Part shown: positions 6,295-18,811 of the stretch, piece by piece
Numbering within the stretch: position 1 is the first letter of the stretch
How the letters are laid out: each line of letters opens with the position of its first letter
DNA from: Bacillota bacterium
GTDB lineage: Bacteria; Bacillota; Limnochordia; Darwinibacteriales; Darwinibacteriaceae
Assembly: GCA_012840725.1 (NCBI GenBank)
Contig: DURQ01000043.1
Location: forward strand, 1 to 40,633
Reading direction: 5' to 3'
DNA: 40,633 bases
Made by a program: the position numbers and the translations under genes
Notes under the pieces: model-generated
What the model saw: the letters and a program-made list of their open reading frames with translations, nothing else
Database searches by the model: none
Told to the model about the DNA's origin: nothing

Positions 6295-7038
6295 TCACTT
6301 GAAAAAGCGGTGATTGCCGATGGTGACGGTGGGCGTCCTGGTCCACACCCAGGACCCCTTGGCCACTTTGGCCGGAGCGAAGAACCCGGTCGCCCCGCCG
6401 CTGGGATCCCAGCCGGCCAGGGCATCGGCCACGGCATCTTTCGCCGTTTGGCTGGCGGGTTTGTGGATGGTCCCGTTCAGCACAGGCTCATACTGGTAGT
6501 AGCGCTTGCCGCCAGAGACGGTCACCTGGCTGATCACACCCGAAAGGGTGTTGGGGTAGTCGGGGTGCGCAACCCGGTTGAGCACGGTGGCGGCGACCGC
6601 CACCTGCCCTTCGTAGCTCTCACCCTTGGCTTCAGCGTGGACAAGGCGGGCCAGAAGGTCCAGTTCTTGAGCTGAAAAGATGGGCTTGAGGTCCACAGAG
6701 ATGGTGAAGTCTCCGCCTGTGACCGCCACTTCCTGCTGCAGCTGCTTGTAAAAGAGAGCTTTGATGGTGAGCGTATAAGTACCTGTCGCAACGCCCGTAA
6801 ACTGAAAGGCGCCGCCGCTGATGGTGGTGCTGTAGCCAGGGCTGCCGGGACGGGTGAGGGTGACCTGCCCGCTCCAAAGTTTGAGCCCTGAGAGAGCGTC
6901 TGAGACTGTCCCCGTGAGGGATGCTTTGGCGCTACCCGGCGGCGGGCTTGGATCACCTGAAGGGGGAAGAGAACTCAGGCAGCCTCCAAGGCTGACCGCC
7001 AGCAGGATGATTATCGAGAGCAAAGTATAATGCCGCAA
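6295..7038 (-). CDS. Lipoprotein with carboxypeptidase-regulatory-like and SleB/CwlJ-type hydrolase domains
   Basis: Protein of 247 aa on the minus strand starting at TTG (7038-7036) behind an AAGGAAGGAA stretch. A lipoprotein signal peptide ends in LGGC with the lipidated Cys at residue 20, followed by a Pro/Ser-rich linker. Residues about 40-118 form a carboxypeptidase-D-regulatory-like beta domain (LTGTVSDA..., GAFQFTGVATGTYTLTI). Residues about 124-247 match the Hydrolase_2 family of SleB/CwlJ germination-type cell-wall hydrolases: LVHAEAKGE carries the presumed catalytic Glu (136), then VAATVLNRV, YQYEPV and the closing IGNHRFF. It should be anchored outside the membrane and act on peptidoglycan. 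A role in spores is possible but not shown. It is divergent from pcrA and convergent with hisIE, so it is transcribed alone. Confidence 0.87.
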   Translation of the reverse strand: MRHYTLLSIIILLAVSLGGCLSSLPPSGDPSPPPGSAKASLTGTVSDALSGLKLWSGQVTLTRPGSPGYSTTISGGAFQFTGVATGTYTLTIKALFYKQLQQEVAVTGGDFTISVDLKPIFSAQELDLLARLVHAEAKGESYEGQVAVAATVLNRVAHPDYPNTLSGVISQVTVSGGKRYYQYEPVLNGTIHKPASQTAKDAVADALAGWDPSGGATGFFAPAKVAKGSWVWTRTPTVTIGNHRFFK

Positions 7039-11630: not shown

Positions 11631-13054
11631 GGAGACTGGCGCAGCTGCTTGCGGCGGGCGAGGTTACCAGTACTGAGCTGGTGCGGCGCTGCCTGGAGCA
11701 GATCAAAGAAAGAACAGAGCTGAACGCCTTTATCACCGTGGATGAGGAAGGAGCCCTAGCGCAGGCGGCGGAATCCGATGCGCGCCGGGTGCGGGGCGAG
11801 GCCCTTTCTCCCTGGGACGGAATTCCCCTTGCCATCAAGGACAACATCTCAACCAAAGGGCTGCGCACTACCTGCGCCTCCCGTTTTCTCCAGAACTACC
11901 GGCCCGTCTTCGACGCCACCGTGGTGGAGCGGGTGAAGAAGGCTGGACTGCCCATAATCGGCAAGACGAACCTTGATGAGTTCGCCATGGGCTCCTCAAC
12001 AGAATACTCTGCTTTTGGAGTGACCCGCAATCCCTATGACCTGGAGCGGGTGGCGGGAGGTTCCTCCGGCGGATCGGCGGCGGCCGTTGCCGCGGAGATG
12101 GTGCCCTGGTCCCTGGGAACGGACACGGGGGGATCGATCCGCCTTCCTGCGGCCTTTTGCGGCGTGGTCGGGCTGAAACCGACCTACGGCCGGGTCTCTC
12201 GCTATGGAGTGGTGGCCCTGGCTCCCTCTCTGGATCAGGTGGGTCCTCTCGCCAGGACGGTGGAGGATGCTGCCGCCTTGTTTGCGCTCATCGCTGGGGC
12301 GGACCCCAAGGATGCCACGTCGGCAGGCTCCCCCGCCTTCCAGGTACCGACCTGGGATGGGGTGGTGCTGCGGGGGCTCCGCATCGGGGTTCCAGAAGAA
12401 TTCTTCGGCGACGGCGTCAGCCCTGAAGTGCGGGCAGCAGTGCGGGGAACCCTGGAGAGCCTGGAGCAAGAGGGAGCCATCCTAAAGCCGGTTTCCCTCG
12501 CCACCAACGAATACGCCATAGAGACCTACCTTACTCTGGTCACGGCGGAGGCAAGCTCCTGCCTTGCCCGCTTTGACGGCGTGCGCTACGGTGAACGGGT
12601 CGCGGCACCCGACTCCAATACCATGTTTGCCCGCAGCAGGGGGGCAGGTTTTGGGCCGGAAGTTAAGCGGCGCATCATGCTCGGCACCTACGTACTCAGT
12701 GCCAGCCACTACGAGGCCTACTACGAGCAGGCCCAGCGCGTGCGGACTCTGATCAAGCGGGAAGTGGAGAAGGCCTTTGAGCAGGTGGACCTGATCGTTA
12801 CCCCAACGACTCCAGCCACAGCCTTCCGGATCGGGGAGAGGCGTGATCCTCTGCAGATGTACCTCTCAGACTTGTTCACAGCCACCGCCAATCTGAGCGG
12901 GATCTGCGCTCTGACCCTTCCCTGCGGGCGCGATTCCCAGGGCCTGCCCATCGGGCTGCAGATCATGGGCAGCCACTTCCAGGAAGAACTGCTCTTCCAG
13001 GCGGCCCATGCTGTGGAGGAAATTGTGCAAAGGGGGGCCTCAAGTGAACTATGA
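11627..13054 (+). CDS. gatA: Asp-tRNA(Asn)/Glu-tRNA(Gln) amidotransferase subunit A
   Basis: Amidase-signature protein of 475 aa starting at ATG 11627 inside the gatC stop. GatA hydrolyses glutamine and sends ammonia through a tunnel to GatB. The Ser-cisSer-Lys triad can be placed: Lys71 in LAIKDN, Ser146 in AGGSSGGS and Ser170 in DTGGSIRL, with the same spacing as the Staphylococcus enzyme. Downstream signatures [18 protein letters not shown] and the late [18 protein letters not shown] are intact. Length is normal for bacteria (about 480-490 aa). It overlaps gatB by 11 nt. Confidence 0.98.
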
Positions 13055-14495
13055 TGTTGTGATCGGCCTAGAGATCCACGTAGCCCTGCTCACGGAGAGC
13101 AAGTTCCTCTGCAGCTGCTCCACTACCTTCGGGGCGCCCCCGAACACGCAGTGCTGTCCCGTCTGCCTGGGCCTGCCTGGGGCTCTGCCGGTAGTAAATG
13201 AGAAGGCCGTGGAATACGCGGTTAAAGCGGGCTTCGCCTTGAACTGCGAGGTGCACAGCTTCAGCCGCTTTGACCGGAAGAACTACTTCTACCCTGACCT
13301 TCCCAAGGCTTACCAGATAACCCAGGATAAATACCCGCTATGCACCAACGGCTATCTGGAGTACTACATGGGCGAGGAGCTGTGCCGCACGGCCATCACC
13401 CGCCTGCATATGGAAGAGGAAGCAGGCAAGCTGATCCACAGCGCCGGCAGCATCGTGAATTCCGAGTACTCCCTCGTGGACTGCAACCGAGCCGGAATCC
13501 CTCTCATCGAGATCGTAACAGCGCCCGATCTGAAAAGCCCCCGCCAGGCGCGACTGTTCCTTGAGCAGCTGCGGCTTGTGATGCGCTGGATCGGCGTGTC
13601 CGACGGCAAGATGGAAGAGGGTTCGCTGCGCTGTGACGCCAACATCTCCTTGAAACCGCAGGGCAGCCCCATCTTGGGGACGAAGGTCGAGATCAAGAAC
13701 CTCAATTCCTTCAGAGCCCTGGAACGGGCTTTGGAATACGAGGCTGAGAGACAGCGGATGGTCCTTGAGGGCGGCGGGAAGATTAAGCAGGAGAGCAGAA
13801 CGTGGGATGAGCGTTCCGACCGGACGATGCCCATGCGGTCAAAAGGCGATGCTCCTGATTACCGCTACTTCCCCGAACCAGATCTGCCGCCTCTTCGGAT
13901 GGATCCGGCCTGGATAGCCAGGCTGAAAGAGTCCCTGCCCGAGCTTCCCCTGGAGAGGCTCTGGCGCCTGGAAAGGGACTTCGGGCTTTCCCGTTATGAA
14001 GCGACTTTCTTGGTCAACTACCCCGATTTCGGCGAGCTGTTCCTGGAGCTCGCGTCTGAAGGGTGCGATAACACCGCTGTTGTCAACCTGCTTATGGGCG
14101 ACTACGCACGCCTTGCCCGGGAGAATGGACACCTGGAACCCCGCCGCCTGGAAGAACTGCTGCAGATTGTGGCGGAAGGGCAGATCACCTCGAGCCAGAG
14201 CAAGACCGTCCTCGAAGAACTCTTCCGTTCGCCCCTTGGGCCGCGGGAGATCGTTCAGGCCAAGGGACTTGAGGTAGTGCGGGACTCGGAGCAGCTGCGG
14301 CAGGCGGTGCGGGAAGTCCTCAAGCAGAACCCCGATCTTGTGGAGCGTTACAAGGCTGGAGAGCAGAAGCTCATGGGCTTCTTCGTAGGCCTTGTTATGC
14401 GGGCGGCTGAAGGGAAGGCCGATCCCAAGATGGTCAACCAGCTGCTGCGGGAAGAGCTGGCTGCAGCTGACGGGAGCGAGATCCAGCCTGTTTGA
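13044..14495 (+). CDS. gatB: Asp-tRNA(Asn)/Glu-tRNA(Gln) amidotransferase subunit B
   Basis: GatB of 483 aa; start GTG 13044 ([15 protein letters not shown]) follows AAAGGGGGG with 7-nt spacing. The subunit phosphorylates and transamidates the glutamyl end of misacylated tRNA. Typical segments are the zinc-site cysteines (FLCSCSTTFG ... NTQCCPVCLGLPG), FDRKNYFYPDLPKAYQI, the HMEEEAGKLIH loop and YRYFPEPDLPP. The C-terminal YqeY-like tail domain (about residues 330-483) that binds the tRNA elbow is present. It completes the gatCAB set, which implies the organism makes Gln-tRNA (and perhaps Asn-tRNA) by the indirect route. Confidence 0.98.
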   Translation: MNYDVVIGLEIHVALLTESKFLCSCSTTFGAPPNTQCCPVCLGLPGALPVVNEKAVEYAVKAGFALNCEVHSFSRFDRKNYFYPDLPKAYQITQDKYPLCTNGYLEYYMGEELCRTAITRLHMEEEAGKLIHSAGSIVNSEYSLVDCNRAGIPLIEIVTAPDLKSPRQARLFLEQLRLVMRWIGVSDGKMEEGSLRCDANISLKPQGSPILGTKVEIKNLNSFRALERALEYEAERQRMVLEGGGKIKQESRTWDERSDRTMPMRSKGDAPDYRYFPEPDLPPLRMDPAWIARLKESLPELPLERLWRLERDFGLSRYEATFLVNYPDFGELFLELASEGCDNTAVVNLLMGDYARLARENGHLEPRRLEELLQIVAEGQITSSQSKTVLEELFRSPLGPREIVQAKGLEVVRDSEQLRQAVREVLKQNPDLVERYKAGEQKLMGFFVGLVMRAAEGKADPKMVNQLLREELAAADGSEIQPV

Positions 14496-14565
14496 TATTA
14501 CTGGAAAAACGGCAGGAGTTTGTCTCACAAAGAGGGAATAATTGCGGTGGAGGCAGGAGCGGTCT

Positions 14566-15384
14566 ATGGAGAACATCCTCTTTTACTTCGCCAACTTTCC
14601 AGTTTACTCGTACGGCGCTATGCTCGGGTTAGGGCTGCTCATCGGGTCTTGCCTGGCGCAGCAGGAAGGCAAGCGCAAAGGCTTCGGCCCAGATTTCATC
14701 TTCAACTTTGTCGTTGGAGTGGCACTGGCCTTCATGCTTGGCGGCCGCATTTACACCGTCTACCAGGTTCACGGCTGGCGCATGATCCTCTACCCCTGGG
14801 TTCTGTTCAGCGGTCTCCAGATGGATGAACGCGCCGGCGGGATTGCCGCGGGGGTTTACGCCATCTACTTCGTCCTCCGCTATGTTTCCAACGGGGCCGC
14901 CTTCCTCGATGTGCTGACCCCTCCCGTGGCGCTCATCCAGTCCCTCGGTTATCTGGGATCCAGCGTGCTGGGCAGGCAGACGTTCAGCCCCTGGGGAGTG
15001 AACTTGGGCGAGTTCAACCTTCACCCGCTGCCCCTGTACGCCGCCTTGATCTACTACGTCGTTTTCTCGTTCTTGTGGAGGATGCGGCGCAACCTGCGCT
15101 ACGATGGCCAGCTCTTCTTGGGCTACCTGGCTCTATCGGCCCTGGCGCAGCGCATCCTGATACCCTTCAGAGAAGAGTCGCCGGAAACGGTTCTCCCGTG
15201 GCTCTATACTCTGGCCTTTGTGGTGTTTGGACTTGTCTGGCTGTATCTCTTCACACAGGCACCCTTGACGGATATGAGGCGGAGGCGGGATCTGCGCAGC
15301 TGGCGCTCATGGGTGGCCTATCTGGTTTCTTTGATGGGTGTGGGGTTTTTGATGATGAGGTTTTTCTACTGGCGCTTTAGTTAA
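14566..15384 (+). CDS. Divergent Lgt-like integral membrane protein
   Basis: Protein of 272 aa from ATG 14566, 6 nt after AGGAG. It has about seven hydrophobic segments and the overall layout of prolipoprotein diacylglyceryl transferase: YSYGAMLGLG near the start, GGRIYTVYQ (about 59-67), an AGG turn, an LGYLGSSVLGRQT segment (about 117-129), NLHPLPLYAALIYY, and YLALSALAQRILIPFREE. However, residues essential in E. coli Lgt are missing where they should be: the His of the HGG motif (His103) aligns to Ala90, and the GRxGNFxNGE signature is replaced by GYLGSS, so Arg143 becomes Tyr119 and Asn146 becomes Ser122. It may be a paralogue with another lipid substrate or a non-catalytic relative; a genuine Lgt would be expected elsewhere in the genome. 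It lies 70 nt after gatB and 14 nt before the Fur-family gene. Confidence 0.7.
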   Translation: MENILFYFANFPVYSYGAMLGLGLLIGSCLAQQEGKRKGFGPDFIFNFVVGVALAFMLGGRIYTVYQVHGWRMILYPWVLFSGLQMDERAGGIAAGVYAIYFVLRYVSNGAAFLDVLTPPVALIQSLGYLGSSVLGRQTFSPWGVNLGEFNLHPLPLYAALIYYVVFSFLWRMRRNLRYDGQLFLGYLALSALAQRILIPFREESPETVLPWLYTLAFVVFGLVWLYLFTQAPLTDMRRRRDLRSWRSWVAYLVSLMGVGFLMMRFFYWRFS

Positions 15385-15398
15385 GAGGGGGTGGGGCA

Positions 15399-15872
15399 AT
15401 GCTGAAGGACCGGGTTAAGGCCAAGCTGGAGGAGGAATCCTACCGGCTGACTCCCCAAAGAAGTGCCGTCTTAGACGTGCTGATTGCCAACTCCGATGAC
15501 CACCTTTCCGCTGAGGAAATCTACAATCATACCAAGGAACTGCACAGTGAAATCGGCCTGGCGACTGTGTACCGCAACCTGGAGCTCCTGGAAAAGCTGG
15601 GCATCGTGCACCGCTTCGATTACGGCGATGGGCAGAGCCGCTACGAACTGCGGCTCGGATCGGAACACGAGCATTACCATCATCACCTGATCTGCAAGCA
15701 GTGCGGGTTTATCGGGGAGTTTCACAGCGACCTGCTCGAAGAGATCGAACAGCGCATCGCCCAAGAAAGCGGGTTTCAGGTGACAGACCACTGCCTGCGC
15801 TTCTTCGGGATCTGCGCTGAGTGCCAGAAAAAGGCCAAGGAGAAAGAAACTCAGGAAAAGCCCAATACTTGA
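15399..15872 (+). CDS. Fur-family metal/peroxide-responsive transcription regulator
   Basis: Protein of 157 aa from ATG 15399 after AAGAGGGGGTGGGG. The winged-helix DNA-binding domain (residues about 1-80) shows YRLTPQRSAVLDVL and the recognition segment ATVYRNLELLEKLGIV. The dimerisation domain holds the structural zinc site with two CxxC pairs (Cys99/Cys102, Cys139/Cys142) and the regulatory His-rich stretch EHEHYHHH (about 90-96). The residue matching the oxidation-related Asp85 of B. subtilis PerR appears to be Glu83 (RYEL), which points to Fur or Zur rather than PerR, but sequence alone cannot settle the metal. The acidic/basic tail after 145 is poorly conserved. The valS promoter -35 box overlaps its stop codon. 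Confidence 0.9.
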   Translation: MLKDRVKAKLEEESYRLTPQRSAVLDVLIANSDDHLSAEEIYNHTKELHSEIGLATVYRNLELLEKLGIVHRFDYGDGQSRYELRLGSEHEHYHHHLICKQCGFIGEFHSDLLEEIEQRIAQESGFQVTDHCLRFFGICAECQKKAKEKETQEKPNT

Positions 15873-15897
15873 CAGCAGGCAGTGTGCATTGTAAGAT
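15869..15897 (+). promoter_or_regulatory. Sigma-A-type promoter of valS-folC
   Basis: TTGACA (15869-15874), 17-nt spacer, TAAGAT (15892-15897): a near-consensus housekeeping promoter. Its -35 box overlaps the TGA stop of the Fur-family gene. Transcription would start near 15904, just before the T-box leader. Confidence 0.85.
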
Positions 15898-15912
15898 AAA
15901 CTCAATTACACA

Positions 15913-16149
15913 GGTGCGTTGATGGGGAGGAGTACACAGCTGGCCCTTTCAGAGAGGAAAGCCAAGCGGTGTGAGCTTTCTAAGGAAGCGGTTGTGGAAG
16001 TCGCCCCGGAGCTTCTCGAGTGAAGCTTAGTAGCTCGAGACGGTGGTTCCGTTATAACCTCCATTGAGGGCCTCCCGGCTTTGCTGGGGGGAACTAAGGT
16101 GGTACCGCGAGAGCAGCTCTCCGTCCTTAGCCGGGCGGGGAGTTTTTTT
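15913..16149 (+). promoter_or_regulatory. T-box leader (tRNA-Val sensing) of valS
   Basis: The 305-nt interval between the Fur gene and valS is filled by a T-box riboswitch. Visible elements are the AGAGAGGAAAG internal-loop motif near 15951, a probable specifier GTC (valine) at 16000-16002 in the context GGAAGTCGCCCC, the T-box core AAGGTGGTACCGCGA at 16096-16110, and an intrinsic terminator at 16117-16149. The bulge UGGU would pair with an ACCA tRNA 3' end, as expected for a tRNA with discriminator A. When uncharged tRNA-Val binds, the antiterminator forms and valS is transcribed. The class is certain; the specifier position is read by eye. Confidence 0.93.
16117..16149 (+). terminator. T-box attenuator terminator
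   Basis: Ten-base stem CTCTCCGTCC / GGGCGGGGAG (two G-U pairs), 6-nt loop TTAGCC, then seven T. It forms when tRNA-Val is charged and stops transcription before valS. Confidence 0.92.
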
Positions 16150-16177
16150 CTGAGAAGATATTGGGGAGTGAACGGCA

Positions 16178-18811
<2,634 letters not shown>

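Follow-up and report, generated by a model that had tools for sequence, protein, structure and literature searches.

An Lgt-like membrane protein without most of the known Lgt active-site residues, kept at a housekeeping locus in a class of Bacillota

Lgt is generally treated as a single-protein step of lipoprotein maturation and as a drug target, and a protein that matches the Pfam family PF01790 is easily called 'lgt'. The enzyme has seven transmembrane helices; in some distant Lgt the residue corresponding to N146 of the Escherichia coli protein is Cys, and in some Lgt the His of the HGGL motif, H103, is Tyr, Trp or Phe. The closest described system is the phosphatidylglycerol:prolipoprotein diacylglyceryl transferase of E. 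coli (PDB 5azb and 5azc), in which binding roles have been assigned to R143 and R239 (PMC4728403). According to a report from 2026, Y26, H103, R143, N146, G154 and R239 are essential in this enzyme, the H103A, R143A, N146A and R239A variants giving no growth support, and D129A, E151A and E243A are tolerated (PMC13251419). The same source counts roughly 1,300 genomes that carry lgt twice and describes a second, deviating Lgt in M. smegmatis, MSMEG_5408, as well as an LGT subgroup devoid of both R143 and R239 from groups outside Bacillota (Deinococci, Anaerolineales and Myxococcales). Second lgt-type genes with a dedicated context are also known from copper-induced operons of Listeria and Enterococcus, which carry lgt2 (PMC8275575). 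The ordinary Lgt pathway is the subject of PMC12636315. The archaeal AliA/AliB pair (PMC12186497) was considered as a precedent for two paralogues and set aside, the archaeal genes being called not homologous in PMC13251419. Our literature searches, which covered titles, the starts of abstracts and few subscription papers, recognised no paper on the Lgt-like family described below.

The member of this family examined here is encoded in a stretch of 40,633 nt (hereafter the window) from Bacillota bacterium GCA_012840725.1, contig DURQ01000043.1 (Bacillota; Limnochordia; Darwinibacteriales; Darwinibacteriaceae), the genome of which (G000) is 84% complete and comprises 2.06 Mb in 103 contigs. The gene occupies positions 14566..15384 of the plus strand, with an ATG at 14566 and a stop codon ending at 15384, and specifies a protein of 272 aa; AGGAG at 14555..14559 (plus strand), read from the sequence six bases 5' of the ATG, is the likely ribosome-binding site. 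The protein belongs to PF01790 at the family level (65.7 bits against a cut-off of 24.9, E 5.2e-18) and scores far below the equivalog-level Lgt models NF000778 (58.8 versus 334 bits) and TIGR00544 (25.2 versus 118.9).

An Lgt fold is predicted for the protein. The AlphaFold model (mean pLDDT 88.3, pTM 0.85) was computed from a 46-row alignment of the protein itself and its second-copy or 'GCD' relatives, with none of the order's canonical Lgt included, and in a fold search of the PDB its sole match at E 0.001 or better was E. coli Lgt (5azb, E 2.5e-8). The two structures align over 231 residues, covering model residues 1–233, with a Z of 19.8 and an rmsd of 3.3, and the next chain reaches a Z of 6.1; a sequence search of solved structures with the same protein yielded no match at E 1. 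A second model, for a member of family f15 of the class (pLDDT 89.7), likewise aligns with 5azb over 231 residues (Z 17.2, rmsd 4.1; next chain Z 6.9), so that the Lgt fold outlives the known chemistry in the class. A library of viral folds returned a single match at E 0.001 or better (E 2.5e-4), BFVD A0A3G5A9U5, a protein of the giant virus Hyperionvirus named prolipoprotein diacylglyceryl transferase.

The original prediction, made from the DNA alone, that the Lgt layout is followed from end to end holds for the fold and fails in two places. None of the 33 intact orthologues has a residue at the columns of F147, N149 or G150, and the head loop that follows the GYLGSS motif is shortened in the alignment relative to E. 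coli Lgt. At the other end, a helix formed by residues 246–271 (codons 15301..15378, plus strand) is not covered by the match to E. coli Lgt and, on the strength of the model, the fold comparison and hydropathy, is predicted to be an eighth transmembrane segment. By hydropathy prediction, two segments are found C-terminal to the R246 column in 32 of the 33 orthologues, as against one in each of 46 canonical rows, and from the Lgt topology the C-terminus would be expected outside. Beyond the order, two such segments are predicted for 9 of 11 second copies of f10, all six of f15, f7 and f12, four of five 'GCD' rows and two of five f11 copies, one for both f16 copies and none for the three of f6, an uneven picture outside the order.

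Active-site residues were compared in an alignment of 110 Lgt-family rows and the E. coli Lgt taken from the K-12 genome, with all letters counted per column; the groups compared were the 33 orthologues and 42 canonical rows, L047, L054 and L106 standing outside both. Unlike E. coli Lgt, none of the orthologues has H103, R143, N146, E151, E202, Y235 or E243, and R239 is present in three and R246 in 19. By contrast, the equivalents of Y26, R73 and H196 are retained in 32 and those of D129, G145, G154, P197 and Y201 in all 33, the H196-P197 and Y201 equivalents falling by alignment within HPLPLY (residues 153–158; codons 15022..15039, plus strand). R143 is found in all 42 canonical rows and R239 in 41, and both are also present in L047, L054 and L106. 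The absence of catalytic residues that had been predicted for this reading frame is therefore upheld by the alignment, most firmly for R143.

The R143 column is occupied by Tyr in 13 orthologues, Ala in six, His in four, Asn in four, Ser in three, Gln in two and Cys in one, and in none of the 33 is there an Arg within two residues of it. The R239 column contains Gln (20), His (5), Arg (3), Leu (2), Met (2) or Lys (1), and neither Arg column has a fixed replacement residue. As an Arg stands at the R239 column or one residue off in 16 of the 33, including the window protein (Gln195 followed by Arg196), the loss of R239 is, as far as the alignment tells, softer, and that of R143 the firmest of all. 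The stretch QRILIPFR (residues 195–202; codons 15148..15171, plus strand) places Gln195 in the R239 column and Arg202 in that of R246; RILIPFREE, previously read as an Lgt-like motif, thus begins one residue past the R239 column. The Lgt signature GRLGN is indeed replaced by GYLGSS, although the earlier numbering was off by ten: the motif spans residues 128–133 (codons 14947..14964, plus strand), and by alignment R143 and N146 correspond to Tyr129 and Ser132 rather than to Tyr119 and Ser122. Ser occupies the N146 column in 32 orthologues and Tyr in one, and nine have an Asn within two residues. The His of the HGG motif is missing as predicted, but its column holds Arg89 and not Ala90, which corresponds to G104; Arg89-Ala90-Gly91 (codons 14830..14838, plus strand) align with H103, G104 and G105, the preceding columns being gappy. 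No orthologue has His at this column, seven have Tyr, and eight have a His within four residues; the window protein contains just two His, at positions 69 and 153. The nearby G99 column is kept in 12 orthologues and is a gap in 20, in a gappy stretch where the alignment is uncertain.

The wider family of second copies in the class is not uniformly stripped of these residues, since several families retain more of them. R143 is lost in all 11 copies of f10 (Ser in each), with R239 kept in one, and both Arg are lost in all five of f11; in the two f16 copies R143 is lost and R239 retained, as it is in all six of f15, f7 and f12, where the signature loop is largely deleted. The three f6 copies retain H103, R143, R239 and E243 and have Cys in place of N146.

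The gene is no peculiarity of a single genome. An intact orthologue is encoded in 33 of the 36 genomes of the order, the source genome included. In G020 the gene is present as two pieces on two contigs, and in G034 as a fragment of 31 residues where a contig ends, next to gatB; no orthologue was found in G006, where gatB was not found either, and the absence is thus no evidence of loss. A scan of a genome collection returned 52 stretches and two relatives (L033 and L034), which probably come from the same genomes as G001:C75 and G002:C28, and a plasmid search with the protein returned five records at 23–28% identity, four of them annotated as lgt. A canonical PF01790 match is present in 33 of the order's 36 genomes; G021, G022 and G034, which gave none, are 86–88% complete. 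Among the 72 genomes of the class 71 have a PF01790 match and 60 have two or more. The source genome itself carries a canonical lgt on another contig (G000:C14, PF01790 E 1.2e-53), together with lspA, as had been anticipated from the presence of a lipoprotein gene in the window; consequently, lipoprotein maturation need not depend on the Lgt-like gene. A pattern scan of the window did recover one lipobox candidate, on the minus strand from 7038. The putative lipoprotein in question (6295-7038, minus strand) has a TTG start and an LGGC lipobox, and Pfam assigns to it a carboxypeptidase-regulatory-like domain and a cell wall hydrolase domain.

In a tree of 86 of the 110 Lgt-family rows (24 were dropped), the orthologues form one group with support of 100/100, and the second copies of f1–f7, f10–f12, f15 and f16 are split from the canonical and 'GCD' rows with support of 94/95; the second copy of f13 (L107) and a third copy found in an f10 genome (L106) lie on the canonical side of this split. 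Given the long branches and a weak backbone (30/90 at the drawn root split), we draw no conclusion on the order in which the second copies diverged. The tree speaks against a recent duplication of the canonical Lgt of the order: constraining 18 orthologues and 13 of the order's canonical rows to a single clade comes at a cost of 33.9 log units and is rejected (AU p 0.011). With a canonical lgt present, the residues absent and the protein not a recent copy, the counter-case envisaged in the original prediction, that of a sole and functional lgt or of ordinary Lgt with misaligned residues, does not apply.

Gene order provides an argument for common descent that is independent of the tree. In the window, gatB (13044..14495) lies upstream and valS (16178..18811) downstream, both on the plus strand and both identified by Pfam and conserved position, and the layout ligA-gatCAB-[EamA]-Lgt-like-[fur]-valS recurs at the second copies of further families in the class. 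In the 27 genomes of the order that were read with wide flanks, the upstream neighbour is gatB in 21 and ligA in six, and valS is found downstream in 23; of the other four stretches, three end within 0.7 kb downstream, and in L092 no valS was found in the 2.7 kb downstream of the gene. The six loci with ligA directly 5' of the gene all belong to f3 (L035, L036, L038, L091, L092 and L093), and gatA and gatB were not found there within the stretch read. Outside the order, gatA-gatB precede the second copy in f16 (2/2), f11 (5/5), f15 (3/3) and f7 (2/2), and the single f12 locus has ligA upstream. At the ten f10 loci read, EamA is upstream in all and valS follows at 2.6–2.8 kb in six, and gatB was not found. 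An EamA transporter gene (for example, L098:2905-3849) directly precedes the second copy in all ten f10 loci read, five of five in f11 and two of two in f16, and in the last two families it sits between gatA-gatB and the second copy. Three f6 loci and one f13 locus yielded none of the seven neighbours that were looked for, although some of these stretches are short on one side. The position is thus shared in eleven of the class's sixteen families (for f10 on the basis of EamA and valS), which argues for descent from one second copy.

Taken together, these observations lead us to favour, with evenly balanced confidence, a reading in which the protein is an ancient Lgt paralogue at one housekeeping locus that no longer performs Lgt chemistry and functions without catalysis, possibly in support of canonical Lgt. 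Transfer from phosphatidylglycerol to prolipoprotein has likely been lost, judging from the alignment, because the residues required for it are gone and both the R143 and the H103 column vary without evident constraint. The paralogue, kept at that locus in many families of a Bacillota class, has lost catalytic and phospholipid-binding residues and has a shortened head loop and an eighth predicted transmembrane helix; its remaining membrane cavity may hold lipid or a prolipoprotein signal peptide without catalysis, and it would most plausibly partner or regulate the canonical Lgt with which it shares the membrane, a role that we infer because the conserved fold, the canonical Lgt alongside and the added helix all fit it. 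A more specific version, that the eight-helix, short-headed branch is a dedicated non-catalytic partner which loads lipid or signal peptides for canonical Lgt, or gates it, and so makes maturation a two-component process, is speculative and in our estimate rather unlikely. LGT proteins without R143 and R239 are already known; what is added here is a class of Bacillota in which such a gene keeps its locus and the protein has a short head and an eighth helix, Bacillota not being among the groups named in the section of PMC13251419 on the R143/R239-less subgroup. A conserved and selected paralogue without the known active site shows that the Lgt fold has a second life, offers a natural separation of scaffold from chemistry and illustrates how family-based annotation can over-call the enzyme. 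Should the paralogue turn out to partner Lgt, lipoprotein maturation in these bacteria would begin with a step that takes two proteins.

The main rival, and a serious one, is that the protein remains an enzyme but one whose specificity or mechanism has changed, the Lgt scaffold carrying a new active site that acts on another lipid or acceptor, a possibility that we entertain only tentatively. It draws on the 21 columns that are invariant in the 33 orthologues, among them Asp115, Arg174 and Arg178, at identities down to 35%. Tyr16 and Gly136, the equivalents of the essential Y26 and G154, are kept in 32 and 33 orthologues, respectively, and the N146 column is Ser almost throughout; Ser132 and His153, each in 32 of 33, would be candidate active-site residues together with Asp115, Tyr158 and Arg61. 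The authors of PMC13251419 suggest a different substrate or mechanism for the R143/R239-less subgroup of other bacterial groups. However, canonical Lgt shares the conservation of the D129, G154, H196, P197 and Y201 equivalents, which may therefore be structural, the D129A variant of the E. coli enzyme is tolerated (PMC13251419), and R37, R174, R178, Gly181 and Gln182 would, from the Lgt topology, lie at the cytoplasmic end. Moreover, R143 has been replaced by no single new residue.

We consider it improbable that the protein is a non-catalytic membrane component unrelated to lipoproteins, serving, for instance, the adjacent Fur-type regulator or another envelope process. The regulator gene, assigned by profile matches at the level of the Fur family, begins 14 bp downstream in the window (15399..15872, plus strand), and fur follows the Lgt-like gene in all 27 wide-flank loci of the order; the identified neighbours, ligA, gatA, gatB, fur, valS and folC, include no lipoprotein gene. 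The functional link is weakened outside the order, where fur was found only in f16 (2/2) and f15 (2/3) and the stretches read for f7 (2), f10 (10) and f11 (5) yielded none, and housekeeping neighbours tell little about function. A scan for promoters and terminators across 14300–16200 gave one site of each kind, against 0.7 and 2.3 in shuffled sequences.

The protein is very unlikely to be a functional Lgt in which the catalytic residues have been replaced or seem lost only through misalignment. It does pass the Pfam LGT cut-off, Arg stands at or beside the R239 column in nearly half of the orthologues, and H103 is evidently replaceable in nature: Gln occupies its column in five and Tyr in two of the 42 canonical rows. 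The canonical Lgt of the source genome (L001, G000:C14:5616-6314) itself has Gln there, within GGMSSQGA, and E. coli H103Q is reported to grow better than H103A (PMC13251419). Against this stand the loss of R143 in every orthologue, with no Arg nearby, the concurrent loss of N146, E202, Y235 and E243, and the presence of canonical Lgt in most genomes of the order. A decaying pseudogene, to which the lost active-site residues might point, is scarcely credible given the intact frames in 33 genomes, the conserved position and NG86 dN/dS values of 0.03–0.11 in seven pairs (dS 0.7–1.9, the higher values near saturation); the gene is under purifying selection.

The non-catalytic paralogue that we favour resembles the described second Lgt proteins to different degrees. 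Like MSMEG_5408 of M. smegmatis, it deviates from and coexists with a main Lgt, and like the R143/R239-less subgroup it is missing both Arg (PMC13251419). With lgt2 it has in common a dedicated context, which for lgt2 is copper resistance (PMC8275575) and here is ligA-gatCAB-fur-valS; five marker patterns for copper and thiol genes, sought within up to 1.5 kb (a few flanks being shorter), were found at none of 29 loci of the order.

A related short-head type of Lgt, with the motif 'GRVGCDVFG' (L136–L159), made up the top 24 matches of a search of 299 genomes of the phylum, at 276 bits or more, the next match scoring 253. In the five aligned rows of this type, four from those genomes and L107, the residues H103, R143 and R239 are retained and N146 is Cys; L139, L154 and L159 have Gln instead of His. 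The copper/thiol marker patterns lie within 1.5 kb of 14 of the 24 genes, and within 1 kb of 13, compared with none of 36 canonical loci. Relatives of this type that are 44–50% identical to L045 are plasmid-borne in Metabacillus, Cytobacillus and a Fusobacteria isolate (L170, L171 and L172), with genes for a heavy-metal P-type ATPase, copper-binding or DUF2933 proteins within 6 kb. Finally, genes of the isoprenylcysteine methyltransferase family PF04140 adjoin L138 (= L044), L147 and L107 or lie at most 2 kb from them.
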